Assembly: GCF_024692365.1 (NCBI RefSeq)
Contig: NZ_JAILMR010000124.1
Location: forward strand, 1-64,000
Source: Ruminococcus sp.
GTDB taxonomy: Bacteria > Bacillota > Clostridia > Oscillospirales > Ruminococcaceae
DNA length: 64,000 bases
Direction of reading: 5' to 3'
Below the pieces are notes generated by a model that saw only the letters and a list, made by a program, of their open reading frames with translations, did not search any database and was not told where the DNA came from. Position 1 is the first letter of the stretch. Every line of letters begins with the position of its first letter. The translations under genes and the position numbers were made by a program. Of the stretch, positions 9,088-61,349 are shown one piece after another.

Positions 9088-9350
9088 TGAAGAATGGCGT
9101 TGAGAGGAAAAAAGACGCTTTGCGGAACTTTCAGAGAGCTGCCGTTTGGTGAAAGGCAGCAGTTCGATAGCGCGATAACTCGTCCTTGAGCCGGTATGGT
9201 GAACATTCAGTAGCTGTGCCCGGGATTCTCCCGTTACAGAGAGGCGCATTTGTTGATGCGGCAGAGGTGTACAGTGTGAGTTGTGCATGAATCGGAGTGG
9301 TAACACGGGTAATTATGCTCGTCTCTTGTTTTTACAGAGACGGGCTTATT
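9088..9350 (+). ncRNA. T-box leader, candidate Leu specifier CUC (9179-9181), with terminator
   Basis: Stem I-like AGAGAGCUGCCGUUUGGUGAAAGGCAGC; specifier loop AACUCG closed by GAGGA/UCCUU; T-box GGAGTGGTAACACGGG at ~9293-9309; terminator CGTCTCT...AGAGACG; directly upstream of leuA. Confidence 0.88.
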
Positions 9351-29725: not shown

Positions 29726-30604
29726 ATGAATAACGATCAGCGGGAAAAGGCAAAGAAATACGGTATCTATGCAGTGCTGGCAGCAGCACTGCTGATATCT
29801 GCTGCCGTTTCCGCAGTGATCGATAAAAATGATAACAAGAGAGTCGTCATTTACTCCACTTCGAGTGCAGAAAATTCAGCCGAACAAAACGACAGCAGTA
29901 AGGCGAAATCGGAGAAGACCAAGAAAGTCACGACCCAAAAGACTTCAAAAGTGACCGAAGCCAAAACGACCAAACAAACTACTTCCAAAACCTCAAAGAC
30001 CACTAAGGTCAAAACTTCAAAAACAGCAAAGACATCCAAAGAAGCATCGGAGGTAAACTTCCCTATCGACATCAACCTTGTTACCTACGATGAACTTCTC
30101 GCCATCAACGGCATAGGCGAGGGCACGGCTAGGGCGATACTTGATCTGAGAGACAGGGTCGGCGTGATAACATACATGGAAATGCTTCTTGAAATTTCAG
30201 GGATAGGCGAAAACAAACTGACTATGCTTTCCGAGTATCTTTATGTTGACGATGCAGACTATTCTCCGCCACCCGATACCGCCACCGAAATACATACCAC
30301 TGTTCCTACCAACACATACCAACCGATACCAAACGATACCAAACCATACGAAGAGATACCAACTGATACGACTTTCACCGAAACAGTACCGCCTGTATAC
30401 GAACGCAAGCCTGTGAACATAAACGAAGCAGATGTATACCAACTGATGGAGTGTCTGCTGATAGATGAAGAACTTGCTCAAAGTATTCTTGAAATACGCG
30501 AACAGCTTGGCGGAAAATACGAAAACGCTCTTCAGCTATTATATGTCAAAGGCATCAGCAAAGATATGCTTTCGGAATTAAAAGAATACGTACTGCTTGA
30601 ATAA
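29726..30604 (+). CDS. Membrane-anchored protein with two helix-hairpin-helix (ComEA-like) domains
   Basis: INLVTYDELLAINGIGEGTARAILDLRD and VNINEADVYQLMECLLIDEELAQSILEIREQLG; Lys/Thr-rich linker. Confidence 0.75.
   Translation: MNNDQREKAKKYGIYAVLAAALLISAAVSAVIDKNDNKRVVIYSTSSAENSAEQNDSSKAKSEKTKKVTTQKTSKVTEAKTTKQTTSKTSKTTKVKTSKTAKTSKEASEVNFPIDINLVTYDELLAINGIGEGTARAILDLRDRVGVITYMEMLLEISGIGENKLTMLSEYLYVDDADYSPPPDTATEIHTTVPTNTYQPIPNDTKPYEEIPTDTTFTETVPPVYERKPVNINEADVYQLMECLLIDEELAQSILEIREQLGGKYENALQLLYVKGISKDMLSELKEYVLLE
30306..30390 (+). repeat. In-gene decamer array (ATAC[C/G]AANNN)
   Basis: ATACC/ATACG cores at 30316, 30326, 30336, 30346, 30356, 30366 exactly 10 bp apart, with weaker units either side. 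Confidence 0.85.
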
Positions 30605-32963: not shown

Positions 32964-34085
32964 TCAGTTATTTTGCTTGATACGCTCTATGATGCCCATT
33001 TCACCCTTGGCGTCCCCGAGATTGTGGGCAGTTCTCGCCATCTCAACTGCCAAGTTATATTCCTTGTCAGCATTCATTTTATCCTGCTTATATATATAAT
33101 AGTATGCGTACATCAATCTGTGTCGGCACAGCACAAACTTACCCGACTGCTGTATGTATTTTTGCAGTTCATCATCATAAAGTTCGTCGATGACCTCCGC
33201 AGGTTCACCTGTCATTATATCGCAGAAAAGAAGATCGCATTTGCACTCCTTTACGAATATATCAACAAGGTCATCTCTTTCAAGAAACGCCTTGTACTTG
33301 GCTTTTGCGGCTTCGTAGTTTCCTTTTTCGATATCTACCGCAGCCCTAAGCAGCAGAATATTCAATGCACTTAATGAGTGCTGATCTTCGCTTACTGTAA
33401 ACAGTTCTTCTGGCATACTGTCAAGGGTTTTACCTTGCGCTTGTTCACCATTGACAATGAGAACATTCAGCATAGCACGCCTTGCGTTGATGTCACGGAA
33501 ACAATCTAAAATATTTGAGCCGTCATTAGCCAGCCCGAATTTTTTCAGCGGCAGAAAATTCATTACGCCCAGGAACAAATAAATGAACACACCTACTCCG
33601 CAGTATAAAGCAAGGTATTTACTTGACGTATTCAGATAGACTAAACCAAGCAAAGCGGCGGATACGAAATTGAATAATACTCCGCCGAAGTTATACCAAA
33701 AGTAGGGTATGTCCTCATCTTTTTCTACCAGTTCATGTGTCATTAAACACTGACCCGCTGTTCCTGCTACGGCAAATCTCTTAACTGAAAATTTACCTTC
33801 CTGTTTTACCAAAATATACGAACCGATACGAAACGATACGAACTTATAACCGGTTAATAAACCCATTACCAAATGACCCGATTCGTGAATAATGATGCCG
33901 AGAAAATACGAAACGCCGAGAGAAACAAGCATGATGACTATCTCCAGAAGCTTTTTCACGTTGAACGAACCACGTCCCGATAAGCCTATACTTTTAGTCA
34001 GCATAAACCCTGCAAATGCACCGACTATACCACCCACGACCATCATAATCATCTTACCGTCGTTGCTTTTCTTCTTATTTGCCAT
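32964..34085 (-). CDS. Site-2 protease-like (M50) membrane metalloprotease
   Basis: FLGIIIHESGHLVMGLLTGYKF and multiple TMs. Confidence 0.75.
   Translation of the reverse strand: MANKKKSNDGKMIMMVVGGIVGAFAGFMLTKSIGLSGRGSFNVKKLLEIVIMLVSLGVSYFLGIIIHESGHLVMGLLTGYKFVSFRIGSYILVKQEGKFSVKRFAVAGTAGQCLMTHELVEKDEDIPYFWYNFGGVLFNFVSAALLGLVYLNTSSKYLALYCGVGVFIYLFLGVMNFLPLKKFGLANDGSNILDCFRDINARRAMLNVLIVNGEQAQGKTLDSMPEELFTVSEDQHSLSALNILLLRAAVDIEKGNYEAAKAKYKAFLERDDLVDIFVKECKCDLLFCDIMTGEPAEVIDELYDDELQKYIQQSGKFVLCRHRLMYAYYYIYKQDKMNADKEYNLAVEMARTAHNLGDAKGEMGIIERIKQNN
33806..33855. repeat. In-gene decamer array (ATACGAANNN)
   Basis: ATACG at 33816, 33826, 33836 with flanking TTACC and ATAAC units in the same 10-bp register. 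Confidence 0.75.
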
Positions 34086-35358: not shown

Positions 35359-35366
35359 TCATTCTC

Positions 35367-35657
35367 CTAATCAAAAACGTTCTGTATATCGGGCAGTTTC
35401 AGTTCATAGGCGCGGCTGTTTATCTTTTTCAGCAGATAATTCCTCGCCACCATGACAGCAGGCTGATACTTTGTATTCTCCATGCCTATATTAATATGGT
35501 ATATTATGAACTGACCCGAAGAAATTTTCATGACGATATGGTTCTGACCTTCAAAGGTACCTTGAAGAATAGAATTTGATTTTACGAAATGCCAAAGCTC
35601 GTTATAGGTCAGTTCAGTGACCTCATCTTCAAGGAACTGCCTTATCAGCTCTTCCAT
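35367..35657 (-). CDS. Hypothetical protein
   Basis: MEELIRQFLEDEVTELTYNELWHFVKSNS; SD-like AGGAGG region upstream. Confidence 0.55.
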   Translation of the reverse strand: MEELIRQFLEDEVTELTYNELWHFVKSNSILQGTFEGQNHIVMKISSGQFIIYHINIGMENTKYQPAVMVARNYLLKKINSRAYELKLPDIQNVFD

Positions 35658-35825
35658 TTTAAGACCTCCCCGCATTATTTAGAAATAGGCGGACGATATT
35701 GGTTTGAGAAGTCCGCTGAGAATTATTATAACACATTAGGGAATGAAATGCAATATTCTGAAATATGATTATCGGGGTGGGTATACTATTATAATAAGGG
35801 GGTGAATAGCAGACTTTTGATAGTA

Positions 35826-36083
35826 TGCCAAGGAGGAGAGCTTTGGGTCAAGCCTTTCGCGAAAGGCTTGCGGAGAGCTCGAGAGGCAGAGCCTCTCGGT
35901 CAAGGTGCAATGGCGACGTGGCAACTGTGCTGTCAATAGAACTGCAAACTTCCGATACCAAAATTGCGCGGGTAATACCAAAAAGTACGAGCGTGTACCA
36001 AAGTATACCACCGTATCTTTTGGTATGCGTAAATAATGCCCGCGCATGAAATCGGACAGCGATAGCGAATCCGATTTCTCGAC
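35826..36083 (-). repeat. Composite repetitive element, copy 1
   Basis: Read on the minus strand: GTCGAG-hairpin-ATGCGCGGGCATTA-decamers-ATTACCCGCGCAATTTT-CACGTCGCCATTGCACCTTGACCGAGAGGCTCTGCCTCTC-GAGCTCTCCGCAAGCCTTTCGCGAAAGGCTTGACCCAAAGCTC-CTCCTTGGCA. Confidence 0.85.
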
Positions 36084-36210
36084 ACGAACGAAGAGAGGGG
36101 CGACATTACCGCAGTACGTAAAAAACTACAAACATCTGAATAACGAACTGCTTGATTAACGTGTTCTTATCAAAGGAACTGCGGTGGACAGGTCGCCCCT
36201 CGTTCCTCGG

Positions 36211-36471
36211 GTCGAGCCGTCAAAAACGCTTCGCTGTTTGACGGCGTGCGCGGGTAATACTCACGCATACCAAATTGTACGGTCGTATGCGTTGGTACAC
36301 GCTCGTATCGTTTGGTATTACCCGCGCATTTTTTGACAAGGACATCGCTTTGCTGTTAGATTTTTTCTTTGTTTCCACTTCACCTTTGAGCCTTGACCGA
36401 GAGGCTCTGCCTCTCGTGCTCTCCGCAAGCTTTTCGCGAAAAGCTTGACCAAAAGCTCATCTCCTTGGCAT
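36211..36471 (+). repeat. Composite repetitive element, copy 2
   Basis: Same module order on the plus strand, head-to-head with copy 1. Confidence 0.85.
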
Positions 36472-36501
36472 AACTTTCGACTTCTTGCTGTTTTCTCGCT
36501 G

Positions 36502-36530
36502 TTGACACAATAACCAAAATGTGCTATAAT
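36502..36530 (+). promoter_or_regulatory. Promoter TTGACA-N17-TATAAT for gltX
   Basis: Consensus hexamers with 17-nt spacing. Confidence 0.75.
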
Positions 36531-36598
36531 ATTATAGTATATTTTATCCCGCTGTCCCTGTGCGGATATCGGGTATTTCTTAAAAAGGATCTGATAAC

Positions 36599-38257
36599 AT
36601 GGATAATTTCGCATTGGCTAATCTGCTGTTTCCCGACGTAACTGCTTCCCCCGAGGATATGGAGGCTAAGTACCCCCAGAGAAATCTCCCTGAGGGCGCT
36701 TTCGTCACAAGAATAGGACCCTCACCCACAGGTTTCGTTCACCTGGGCAATCTCTATAACGCTATTATTGCTGAGAGAATAGCTCACCAGTCGGGCGGCG
36801 TTTTCTATCTCAGAATTGAGGACACCGACAACAAGCGTGAGGTCGAGGGTGCAGTTGAAACTCTTATCAACGCTATGGAATACTTCGGCGTTCACTTTGA
36901 CGAGGGTGCTACCGCTGAGGGTGACAACGGCGCTTACGGTCCTTACCGACAGCGTCAGCGTGCGGGCATTTACCATGTTTTTGCTAAAAAGCTGGTGGAG
37001 CAGGGCAAGGCTTATCCCTGTTTCCTGACCGAAGAAGAGATACAGGCTATCCGCGATGAGCAGATGGCTAACAAGGCAGACCCCGGCATCTACGGCAAGT
37101 ACGCCGAAAAGAGCAGAAGTCTGACGCTTGATGATATCAAGGCTAACATCGATGAAGGCAAGCCCTGGGTGCTCAGATACAAGGGCGAGATGAACAACGA
37201 GAGAATAGTAGTTAAGGACGCTATCCGCGGCGAGATAGAGATGCCCCGCAATTTCGCAGATTTCGTACTGCTGAAGAGTGACGGCATACCCACTTACCAC
37301 TTCGCACACGTGGTTGACGACCATCTTATGCGTTCGACCCACGTTATCCGCGGCGAGGAATGGATAAGTTCTCTGCCCATGCACGTTGAGCTGTTCGGTC
37401 AGCTTGGCTGGGAACAGCCCATCTACTGCCACACAGCAACTCTGATGAAGATAGATGTTTCCGAGGAAGACCCCGAGAAGCAGATAAAGAGAAAGCTCTC
37501 CAAGAGAAAAGACCCCGAGCTGGCTCTGGCTTACTATCAGCAGGAGGGTATCTCAAACGACGTTGTCTGGGAGTTCCTGCTGACTCTGCTGAACTCAAAC
37601 TACGAGGAATGGCGTGCGGCTAATCCCGATGCTTCGTATATGGACTTCCCTTACAGCATCGAGAAGATGTCAATTTCAGGTGCACTTGTTGATATGGACA
37701 AGCTTCGCGATATCGCAAAGGACACCATCGCACGTATGGACGCCGAAACAGTTTACAGCAACTGGCTGGCATGGTGCGAGGAATACAACAAGGATTTCGC
37801 CGAACTGCTGAAAAAGTACCGCGACAGAACTATCGCTGCGCTGAACGTTGGCAAGAACGGAAAGAAGCCCCGTAAGGATATCGAGACATGGAAACAGGCT
37901 TGTGATTTCATGAGCTTCTACTATGATGAAACTTTCAAGGGCGAGGACGATATGGCTGAACAGGCTGACGAAGAATCCCGCAAGGCATTCTTTGAGAAGT
38001 ATCTTGCAAGCTACGACCACGCTGATGACAGTTCCGCATGGTTCGATAAGGTTAAGGCTATCACCGAGGAACTTGGTTTTGCCGTTAAGCCCAAGGATTA
38101 CAAGAAAGAGCCCGAAAAGTTCAAGGGCAGCATCGTGCATATCACAAATATGCTGCGTATCGCGCTGACAGGCAGGGCTAATGCTCCCGATATACACGAG
38201 GTAAGCCATGTTCTGGGCGAGGAAATTGTAAGGGCTAGACTTTCTAAGTGGGCATAA
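36599..38257 (+). CDS. gltX: Glutamate--tRNA ligase
   Basis: TRIGPSPTGFVHLGNLYNA, FYLRIEDTDNKREVEG, KRKLSKRKDPE. Confidence 0.92.
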   Translation: MDNFALANLLFPDVTASPEDMEAKYPQRNLPEGAFVTRIGPSPTGFVHLGNLYNAIIAERIAHQSGGVFYLRIEDTDNKREVEGAVETLINAMEYFGVHFDEGATAEGDNGAYGPYRQRQRAGIYHVFAKKLVEQGKAYPCFLTEEEIQAIRDEQMANKADPGIYGKYAEKSRSLTLDDIKANIDEGKPWVLRYKGEMNNERIVVKDAIRGEIEMPRNFADFVLLKSDGIPTYHFAHVVDDHLMRSTHVIRGEEWISSLPMHVELFGQLGWEQPIYCHTATLMKIDVSEEDPEKQIKRKLSKRKDPELALAYYQQEGISNDVVWEFLLTLLNSNYEEWRAANPDASYMDFPYSIEKMSISGALVDMDKLRDIAKDTIARMDAETVYSNWLAWCEEYNKDFAELLKKYRDRTIAALNVGKNGKKPRKDIETWKQACDFMSFYYDETFKGEDDMAEQADEESRKAFFEKYLASYDHADDSSAWFDKVKAITEELGFAVKPKDYKKEPEKFKGSIVHITNMLRIALTGRANAPDIHEVSHVLGEEIVRARLSKWA

Positions 38258-38697: not shown

Positions 38698-38766
38698 TGG
38701 TATAATTTCGTATAGGTTCATATAAGTTCGTATATGTTGGTATAAGGTGGTATACTATGGCATACG
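38698..38766 (+). repeat. Intergenic decamer array (T[G/C]GTATNNN)
   Basis: TGG/TCG/TCA at 38698, 38708, 38718, 38728, 38738, 38748, 38758; the last units overlap the next start codon. Confidence 0.85.
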
Positions 38767-51607: not shown

Positions 51608-51810
51608 GATACATATATTTCCTTATATAAAATGAAAATATTCTCAGAATCTGCGCTTACGAATTAATAGTGATTCCATGCTGAACATTGCGTTTCACAC
51701 GTTTTTAAAGATACGCAACATTCGCATTTTTTACTATAATATTATATCACATTCTGAACTACAAGTCAATGCTTTCGGGGAGGGTTTTTACACAGCTACC
51801 CAATAAGATA

Positions 51811-51878
51811 TGCCAAGGAAGAGAGCTTTGGGTCAACCCTTTCGCGAAAGGCTTGACCCAAAGCTCATCTCCTTGGCA
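51811..51878. repeat. REP-like terminal palindrome of the composite element (solo copy)
   Basis: TGCCAAGGAAGAGAGCTTTGGGTCAACCCTTTCGCGAAAGGCTTGACCCAAAGCTCATCTCCTTGGCA, near-perfect 68-bp hairpin. Confidence 0.85.
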
Positions 51879-51971
51879 GGTTTCTCACAAAGTGCTGACC
51901 CGCCGTTTTGCAATTGTACCGTCCTCGCAAAACCAGAAATAGGCGGAATCGGCCCGCCCGGCCGAGGGCAA

Positions 51972-53615: not shown

Positions 53616-53775
53616 GATTCTTCCTCCTTTTTAAATACAAACTGCCGTCCCATAATTCGGGACGGCAGCATTGATAATTCCGGTTAGTTTGTCCGTAAGG
53701 ACTGGGTTTTATTTGCTGGGGTCTTTTGGGGACATTGGGGATTTGCTTTGTTTGGGTTGACCCTTTGTTTTTATT

Positions 53776-53925
53776 TTGGTATTGGTTGGTATGATTTGGT
53801 ATCGTTTGGTATACTCTCGTACCATTTGGTATTCGTTGGTAGACTTGCGAACTGCATCGAACCATTTGGTAGACTTGCGAACTGCATCGAACCATTTGGC
53901 AGACGTTCGTACTTCGGTTGACATG
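53776..53925 (+). repeat. Long decamer array (about 14 units) with a 30-bp exact duplication
   Basis: TTGGTAT... units every 10 bp from 53776 to about 53916; TTGGTAGACTTGCGAACTGCATCGAACCAT repeated at 53836-53865 and 53866-53895. Confidence 0.9.
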
Positions 53926-53938
53926 TCGCCGCTTACGG

Positions 53939-54251
53939 GTCGAGACAGCGACTGCGTCGGCTGTGGCTGTCGCTGTCCGATTTCGTGCGCGGGTAATATT
54001 CACGCTCGCCATAAGTGCAGTGGTATACGTTTGCATACGCTCGTAACGTTTGGTAGCTGCGACTGCGTCGGCAGCGTACCCGCACATTTTTTTGTCACGC
54101 ATTTGAGTTTTGCTTGCTATTGCTTTGTTGGTGGTCACGTCGCTTTAGCGCCTTGACCGAGAGGCTCTGCCTCTAACAATCAGCTTTGCTGATTGTGTGC
54201 TCTCCGCAAGCCTTTCGCGAAAGGCTTGACCCAAAGCTCTTCTCCTTGGCA
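53939..54251 (+). repeat. Composite repetitive element, copy 3
   Basis: GTCGAG-hairpin-TGCGCGGGTAAT-decamers-TACCCGCACATTTTTTT-CACGTCGCTTTAGCGCCTTGACCGAGAGGCTCTGCCTCT-nested hairpin-GTGCTCTCCGCAAGCCTTTCGCGAAAGGCTTGACCCAAAGCTCTTCTCCTTGGCA. Confidence 0.87.
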
Positions 54252-54322
54252 TTCTATCCTAAGTACAGCTACCTTATCGCCCTGCCAACAATTATGAATT
54301 GTGAATTATGAATTAGAAAAAG

Positions 54323-58019: not shown

Positions 58020-58838
58020 ATGAGTAGCATCAACAAAAAAAGCAAGAGCTTCATGCTCTACAAGGAATGGGAAGAGATCTTCCTCGCACTGGAAAGCGAC
58101 GCCGAGAGGGGCGAACTTATCCGAGAGATATTCGCCTTTACAAGAACAGGTGAAACACCCGACCTGAAAGGCGCGATGAAGATCGCATTCATGGTAATGT
58201 CAAATCAGCTTCGCCGTGACGCTGAGCGTTATAATAAGGTATGCGACAAGAACCAGAAGAACATCGCAAAACGCTGGGACAGTGAAGATGGTAAAAATCA
58301 GAACGAAGATGATACCAACGTATACGAAAGTATACCAAAGGATACCAAATCATACGACCGTATACCAGACGATACCAAAAATACCGATAAAGATAAAGAC
58401 AAAGAAAAAGATACAGATAAAGAAAAGGGTGAAGATAAACAGCTTTCTGCAAAGCAGAAGCAGTATCTGCCCGACCTCTCCCCCGCCCCCGAAAAACAGA
58501 AGTACGGAGAATTTAAAAATGTATCTTTATCCCGCGAAGAATACGGACGTCTTGTGACCAAGTTCGGTCAGGATATGACCGATAGATGTATAGAAAGCAT
58601 GGACGCTTACATTGAACAGTCGGGCAAAGAATACCGCAGCTGTTACGCCAAGCTTAAAAACTGGATATCGGAAGAATCCGTAAAAACGAGTGGTATCCCA
58701 TCTTCAAAAGCTTCATCGGCTGAAAACGGCAAGATCACCGAAGAAGAACTTGCGGCATATGAATCCTATGCACGAGCCCATTCGATGGAAGATTTCGCAC
58801 GCGAACTCGAACAAAAGTCGGGTGCAGATCAAGCCTAA
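58020..58838 (+). CDS. DUF6291-like protein with decamer-encoded linker
   Basis: SFMLYKEWEEIFLALESDAERGELIREIFAFTRTGETPDLKGAMKIAFMVMSNQLRRDAERYNKVCDKNQKNIAKRW; SD AGGAGG. Confidence 0.78.
   Translation: MSSINKKSKSFMLYKEWEEIFLALESDAERGELIREIFAFTRTGETPDLKGAMKIAFMVMSNQLRRDAERYNKVCDKNQKNIAKRWDSEDGKNQNEDDTNVYESIPKDTKSYDRIPDDTKNTDKDKDKEKDTDKEKGEDKQLSAKQKQYLPDLSPAPEKQKYGEFKNVSLSREEYGRLVTKFGQDMTDRCIESMDAYIEQSGKEYRSCYAKLKNWISEESVKTSGIPSSKASSAENGKITEEELAAYESYARAHSMEDFARELEQKSGADQA
58312..58390 (+). repeat. In-gene decamer array
   Basis: ATACC/ATACG at 58312, 58322, 58332, 58342, 58352, 58362, 58372, then 58381 (last step 9 bp). Confidence 0.9.
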
Positions 58839-59254: not shown

Positions 59255-59309
59255 ATGCCTCCCGCAACCCTTTCGCGAAAGGATTGACCCAAAGCTCTCT
59301 TCCTTGGCA
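59255..59309 (+). repeat. Partial REP-like terminal palindrome of the composite element
   Basis: TGCCTCCCGCAACCCTTTCGCGAAAGGATTGACCCAAAGCTCTCTTCCTTGGCA. Confidence 0.75.
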
Positions 59310-59408
59310 TACTTATCTACAAACAGATATGTTATTCCCCGCTTTACTTTTCCCACCAACTATGCTATAATTGACCCAAGAAATATCCCCATCAAAAGGA
59401 GTGATACC

Positions 59409-59926: not shown

Positions 59927-59970
59927 TCGTATACTTTGGTATACGATGGTACTAAGTCGTATACGGTGGA
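59927..59970 (+). repeat. Intergenic decamer array
   Basis: TCGT/TGGT/TGGT/TCGT/TGGA at 59927, 59937, 59947, 59957, 59967. Confidence 0.8.
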
Positions 59971-60098
59971 ACAAAAATGTTGAAAGTCACACACATTTCA
60001 CACAAAAATTATTGACTATTTATGTTAAATGTGTTATTATATACATATGTGATTTTATGAGATGTCCGCAAGTATTACGACTTTACAAGGAGGATAAC

Positions 60099-61349
60099 AT
60101 GAAAGGGATTTTTTCTAAAAAGCTGGTAGCTTCTGCTCTTGCAGTAATGGTGGCTGCTTCTTCATCGTCGGCTGTACTGGGCTTTGCTGATAAGTATATC
60201 GAACTTCCGATAATACCCTACGACGGACCCACGTATAATGCCTACTCATTCGTGAACAACACGGACTTTGTTACCGTTTACCAGAACGGCAAGGAATTGA
60301 AATCGGGCGATACCGTGACCGATGAATATGAGATCGTAATGACCTCCCTTTCGCCTTTTACCTATACCGTAAACGGCACTATGTATTCCTGCGATGATTC
60401 AGACAAGATCATGAACAGCTACAAGGCTGAAGTCACACCATACGGCGATTTCACCGTCGAGAAGTATTACAAGCGCGTTCAGCACGATGACGGCTACTAC
60501 GGTGTAAGCAACAGCTACATCTATCTCCGTCCCGAGGCGTTCAATGAGCAGGATATGTTCTATGTTGACAAGTCCATAACAGGCGGAGTTTTCGATGTTC
60601 AGAGAAACGGCAGAACGCTGTCTTTCAAGACCCATCTCAATTATCCCATAAGCATATACGATGCTGAAAGCCAGAAAAAAGTGACAGTTACACACGACAG
60701 CACCACTTTCAGGAATTCGATAACTCTTCCCAGCTCAGGCTATTCGGGCAAGCTGTTTGTTGTCAGGAATTTCGAGAAAATCGGCGATTTCGATGTGAAT
60801 ATGCTCCCCATGATACCCGATGAAGCTCCTTTCACCGTGACCCACACCAGTGCCATGGGCAAGCAGGAAGAGATAGCTCTTGGAAAAGGCTTTGCGACCA
60901 GCGACTATCTTATGGAAGTTGACGGCGCATTCTCAAAGAGTGCTGTATGGGGATTCATGCGTGATAAGACCTCAGGCAGAGGTATCGTTTCGGTAAATCC
61001 CGGCACAGGATTCTGCGTTTATAATATCTTCGGTGAAAAGGTAGATGTAACAAAGCTTGGTTGTTCCGATGATACTAGGGAGATATACTCATTCAGGGCA
61101 TACTGCGATGTCACCTACTATCTGGTAAAGGACAGCACTGCACAGCCCGCCGGAAAGTACCTCAAAGGCGATGTCAACAGCGACGGCGTTGTTGATGTAA
61201 TGGACGTTATTCTGCTGAAACAGTACCTCGCAAATATGAAGGTGAATATCAACGCAAAAGCCGCTGATATCTACACCGATAACACCATAGATAAAGTAGA
61301 TGCAGTTGAGCTTGCACGTTACGTTTCAGGACAAAGTTCTGAATTATAA
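60099..61349 (+). CDS. Secreted dockerin-containing protein
   Basis: Signal peptide MKGIFSKKLVASALAVMVAASSSSAVLGFA; C-terminal GDVNSDGVVDVMDVILLKQYLANMKVN...ADIYTDNTIDKVDAVELARYVSG; SD AAGGAGG. Confidence 0.87.
   Translation: MKGIFSKKLVASALAVMVAASSSSAVLGFADKYIELPIIPYDGPTYNAYSFVNNTDFVTVYQNGKELKSGDTVTDEYEIVMTSLSPFTYTVNGTMYSCDDSDKIMNSYKAEVTPYGDFTVEKYYKRVQHDDGYYGVSNSYIYLRPEAFNEQDMFYVDKSITGGVFDVQRNGRTLSFKTHLNYPISIYDAESQKKVTVTHDSTTFRNSITLPSSGYSGKLFVVRNFEKIGDFDVNMLPMIPDEAPFTVTHTSAMGKQEEIALGKGFATSDYLMEVDGAFSKSAVWGFMRDKTSGRGIVSVNPGTGFCVYNIFGEKVDVTKLGCSDDTREIYSFRAYCDVTYYLVKDSTAQPAGKYLKGDVNSDGVVDVMDVILLKQYLANMKVNINAKAADIYTDNTIDKVDAVELARYVSGQSSEL

Follow-up and report, generated by a model that had tools for sequence, protein, structure and literature searches.

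Interspersed repeats such as BOX, RUP and SPRITE of Streptococcus pneumoniae are intergenic, modular (BOX A-B-C) and strongly folded, and are thought to be old non-autonomous elements that now rarely move (PMC3049150). REP, BIME and REPIN repeats with RAYT are intergenic palindromes in inverted pairs, present in more than 100 copies, with compensated stem changes and REP units of about 20-40 bp (PMC2817692). MITEs, among them foldback types whose inverted repeats are long, are non-coding, strongly folding, intergenic elements of high copy number, with inverted-repeat ends and internal-deletion derivatives. Many of these properties recur in a repeat family that we analyzed from a 64-kb window, the whole stretch of Ruminococcus DNA under study (64,000 nucleotides). 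However, judged by its description, the family differs from BOX, RUP and SPRITE in sequence and size; its unit, ~670 bp long, joins two inverted halves around a polar centre and carries paired hairpins that are heterotypic. Unlike REP, its elements are hundreds of bp long, have no GTAG/GGAG-type foot beside the conserved hairpins and no correlated Y1/RAYT gene. Unlike MITEs, it is not AT-rich, has no detected target-site duplication, and has no matching autonomous element among the tail modules listed and one interval inspected. The family works like MITE, BIME and BOX repeats, and agrees in full with none of them. The papers searched contained no description of such repeats in Ruminococcus albus, and the family is a real interspersed repeat of the R. 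albus group that apparently had not been described.

The first-pass annotation had proposed three copies of a ~260-310 bp element, at 35.8-36.1 kb (minus strand), 36.2-36.5 kb (plus) and 53.9-54.3 kb (plus), and rereading of the sequence located all three. Their shared words are far above chance in pattern counts over the 64-kb window: TGCGCGGGTAAT has four matches with at most one mismatch (0.21 expected), CTTGACCGAGAGGCTCTGCCTCT three exact matches (0 expected) and CTTTCGCGAAAGGCTTGA nine matches with at most two mismatches (0 expected). The repeated segment is real, but profile matches identify it as one half of a larger head-to-head unit, and the first two copies, although both exist, are the two halves of one unit rather than separate elements. 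A complete unit is an imperfect inverted repeat of ~670 bp, in which two halves of ~310-330 bp are arranged head to head with TTGGCA ends; when the half profile was run over all fetched loci, such pairs were the commonest form. From the centre outward, a half consists of GTCGCCCC, a variable stretch, CGGGTCGAG, the hairpin H1 (8-bp stem, loop CGCTTCGCTG), a core whose arms GCGCGGGCAAT...ATTGCCCGCGC flank a variable interior, a spacer of ~60 nt, the hairpin H3 (GAGAGGC-TCT-GCCTCTC or GAGGGC-TCT-GCCCTC), the palindrome H4 (the perfect 22-bp sequence CAAGCCTTTCGCGAAAGGCTTG or a form that contains GCTAGCGCG) and finally the end CTCCTTGGCA. Paired units have, as MITEs do, terminal inverted repeats (ATGCCAAGGAG...CTCCTTGGCAT at both ends), and their GC content is 49%, compared with 45.6% for the window. 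The polar centre between the halves, GGGGCGAC-N66-96-GTCGCCCC, was matched exactly at 16 places in the own genome and at one in R. albus KH2T6, with 0 matches for the backwards control. The outer boundary varies, some copies stopping ~20 bp past TTGGCA and others running outward into TGCCAA and AATTATGAATT repeats, and optional hairpins are inserted at several points of the element. Many loci carry a small hairpin module, GCGACTGCGTCGGC, whose place of insertion, in the H1 loop, the core or the tail, differs by copy (in the window at 53947-53965 and 54058-54075). Many solo copies are bordered on the outer side, after a TTGGCA...TGCCAA hairpin, by AATTATG heptamer repeats, as at 54290-54315.

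The complete foldback unit of the window lies at 35812-36483, as defined by profile matches and folding, with its inverted halves at 35812-36123 (minus strand, the first of the annotated copies; profile match E 3e-76) and 36154-36483 (plus strand, the second; E 2e-89). The centre between them, found by exact pattern at 36097-36199, has unlike left and right sides; neither unit nor centre is assigned a strand. Sequence and covariation place H1 of the left half at 36049-36077 (minus), with the stem allele AAATCGGA/TCCGATTT, and that of the right half at 36217-36244 (plus), with the allele CCGTCAAA/TTTGACGG. On the plus strand, the core of the right half (36247-36328, read from the sequence) has the arms TGCGCGGGTAAT...ATTACCCGCGCA, a decamer-type interior and then a T-run, and its tail (36391-36471) contains H3 (GAGAGGCTCTGCCTCTC), the H4 palindrome (CAAGCTTTTCGCGAAAAGCTTG) and the end CTCCTTGGCAT; the tail-module model R1 matches at 36390-36480. 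The third annotated copy is a solo half at 53908-54267 (plus; E 4e-57 and sequence), which carries inserted GCGACTGCGTCGGC hairpins and continues to TGCCAA and AATTATGAATT repeats. The window also contains two remnants: a minimal form without assigned strand, in which two end modules meet and join at H4 (51810-51879; sequence and overlapping profile matches on both strands), and a fragment comprising the tail only (59256-59319, plus; E 2e-16).

The complete unit sits between a rarA-like gene and gltX (35359-36599). These genes are not neighbours in relatives, where similarity resumes at the gltX promoter and the empty-site comparison lacks synteny; thus, the unit lies where a rearrangement has its breakpoint. 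In the part of the units whose ORFs were searched, nothing transposase-like was seen, the overlapping ORFs being short; Pfam matches were found in flanking genes of the window and none for one ORF that overlaps the fragment at 59.3 kb. The interval 59946-61349 encodes a protein bearing a dockerin type I domain, as in cellulosome-type ruminococci, and a T-box leader RNA (RF00230) at 9091-9329 is the only Rfam match in the window.

In the own genome (3.68 Mb), blastn with the 36.2-36.5 kb copy gave 58 matches, many of full length, at 71-82% identity, and the tail module has at least 105 copies. Among the 29 Ruminococcus genomes searched, where part of the candidates were scored and the counts are lower bounds, the tail module occurs at least 79 times in R. 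albus AR67 (G005), at least 78 times in R. albus KH2T6 (G027) and at least 5-56 times in seven further genomes; one more gave two weak matches and 18 gave none. The family is confined to about a third of these genomes, which all belong to a single genus, the carriers being R. albus and its relatives. An exact-pattern scan identified R. albus AR67, R. albus KH2T6 and two Ruminococcus MAGs as carriers, all 69 matching stretches being Ruminococcus, and a search of viral contigs, plasmids and phages gave no match. These data bear out the earlier description of a repetitive, modular, non-coding and structured family with no match to a named one: further copies are numerous in the own and related genomes, and the copies do not form a single old segmental duplication devoid of empty sites and structure, the two outcomes set beforehand as speaking against it.

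The block of 10-bp repeats previously placed in the ordered chain is present in the named copies, but only 18 of 76 halves were scored as having a decamer-type core, which suggests that decamers are optional filler acquired by some cores. With a T-run of at least five following the core in only 19 of 44 halves, a terminator looped by decamers is not supported as the defining feature. Period-10 arrays of TAC[CG]ANNNNN, scanned as a four-unit pattern whose matches overlap within one array, gave 147 matches in the own genome, 25 in KH2T6, one each in AR67 and a further relative, G022, and 0 in the other 25 genomes, while the control pattern gave 0. Many arrays lie outside the element, and decamers were rejected as its diagnostic core; in the window, degenerate arrays occur at 30307-30369, 33807-33843, 38700-38754, 53775-53904 and 58311-58379, the first and last inside ORFs. 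Arrays occur in an HHH-domain gene and a DUF6291 gene, as well as just upstream of genes. The units share only TAC[CG]A, and the arrays do not look like simple slippage. We concluded that they are a phenomenon separate from the element.

We addressed mobility by seeking the flanks of six own units in five relatives. The site L007 lacks the element in AR67 and KH2T6, and L011 lacks it in AR67, KH2T6 and G022; L002 is empty in G022 and contains a solo half in AR67 and a pair in the own genome, whereas the unit at L021 is common to the own genome and G022. This pattern agrees with the previously suggested non-autonomous element and, the comparison being unrooted, fits gains as well as losses; the exact insertion points are unreadable because the intergenic DNA has diverged. 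Direct repeats at 20 units did not exceed those in shuffled flanks, giving no sign of the anticipated target duplications, which old age of the copies could hide. Each copy is ~80-86% identical to its nearest counterpart, mosaic stretches of 110-150 bp reaching 92-95%, and at most ~86% identity leaves no recent movement visible; the copies appear to be old, with mosaic exchange and no visible recent burst. A REP/RAYT relation was not supported: the Y1 transposase (Y1_Tnp, PF01797) occurs in carriers and non-carriers alike, is missing from some carriers and is uncorrelated with carriage. No autonomous partner or transposon with matching ends was seen among the tail modules listed or in one kb-scale interval inspected. 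This ~2.6-kb interval, at L021 in AR67, was rejected as an autonomous copy, its genes resembling by eye an anti-sigma/sigma-factor operon and not a transposase. Taken together, we consider it probable that these repeats are non-autonomous, non-coding interspersed foldback elements of the R. albus group.

Folded as a whole, the unit of the window gives a single long hairpin (-395 kcal/mol, versus -199 in shuffles), and a half folds strongly on either strand (z -4.2 and -5.3). Of nine stem pairs in H1, five differ at both positions, and no pair differs at just one. Such compensated changes, the strong folding and the T-run after the core arms in 19 of 44 halves would suit a repeated structured RNA, transcribed with neighbouring genes and serving in their untranslated regions as terminators, attenuators or RNase III sites. 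An RNA under selection is expected to tolerate G-U pairs on its own strand. However, G-U pairs are almost absent: H1 pairs over 60 halves comprise 467 Watson-Crick, one G-T, four A-C and eight other, the mismatches in the core stem are 10 G-T versus 13 A-C, and neither stem shows an RNA-strand preference. Stem changes compensated almost without G-U intermediates favour DNA palindromes over RNA, and the stems look like palindromes that change as blocks or are corrected. Moreover, H4, a perfect palindrome, has no fixed loop, a rough ORF-based survey gave no clear orientation rule relative to neighbouring genes, and Rfam gave nothing relevant at gathering or lax thresholds, its sub-threshold matches being at chance level. 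We thus regard an RNA function as improbable.

Heterotypic paired hairpins are the unusual part of the family. H1 stem alleles fall into five classes, and among 29 units from four genomes none has the same class in both halves, against an expectation of 9.3; shuffling within genomes gave so low a count in 0 of 20,000 rounds, a P value affected by the definition of classes after inspection of the sequences and by the non-independence of units at orthologous sites. H3 shows a weaker tendency, with same-class halves in 8 of 30 units versus 14.9 expected (P 0.01). Nine allele combinations were seen, and a fixed A half with a B half was rejected: the two common H1 alleles occur either way round relative to the centre (7 versus 6). 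With the centre folded as single-stranded DNA, 20 of 27 natural units form both lateral H1 hairpins locally, against 0 of 27 computed same-type controls, in which H1 of one half was copied to the other; folding thus predicts that unlike H1 stems keep two lateral hairpins at the junction. The H1 rule may arise because unstable palindromes are lost or because the junction is needed. In a more far-reaching reading, the unit would be a dedicated DNA structure, its halves kept unlike at H1, and its folded four-way junction with two lateral hairpins would be the substrate on which a putative recombinase acts to move the unit and invert its interior; we hold this to be unlikely.

An explanation without mobility, in which template switching, together with recombination among dispersed copies, would let palindromic intergenic DNA grow, swap modules and correct its stems, draws on the mosaic identity between copies, the block-wise stem changes without intermediates and a chimeric H1 in L021. 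Nevertheless, whole ~670-bp units with the same ends lie at many unrelated sites and are present or absent as wholes at orthologous ones, for which local template switching alone is insufficient, and we give this explanation little credence. Less likely still are protein-binding or chromosome-organising repeats like BIMEs, kept for nucleoid or supercoiling functions and only incidentally mobile, since the perfect H4 and H3 palindromes, high copy number and intergenic placement are offset by copy numbers that vary widely among related species (lower bounds of 105, 79, 78 and 15), by sites that are not conserved and by the lack of a known binding protein.

For the non-autonomous foldback elements that we favour, we propose past movement of the unit, driven in trans by a putative enzyme recognising the folded ends or the hairpin junction. 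Deletion between repeated palindromes would have produced the solo halves and minimal forms, and recombination between inverted halves could have exchanged the H1 alleles about the centre. A unit whose halves were of the same type would form a longer palindrome without interruption, at the cost of both lateral H1 hairpins, and would for that reason be lost or selected against. A high-copy repeat family shapes the spaces between genes in the fibre-degrading R. albus and supplies end sequences for seeking the mobilising enzyme. Its never-matching paired hairpins are a natural test, and one that can be counted, of how long inverted repeats survive in the genomes of bacteria; the H1 rule also tests whether the folded form is what an enzyme recognises.
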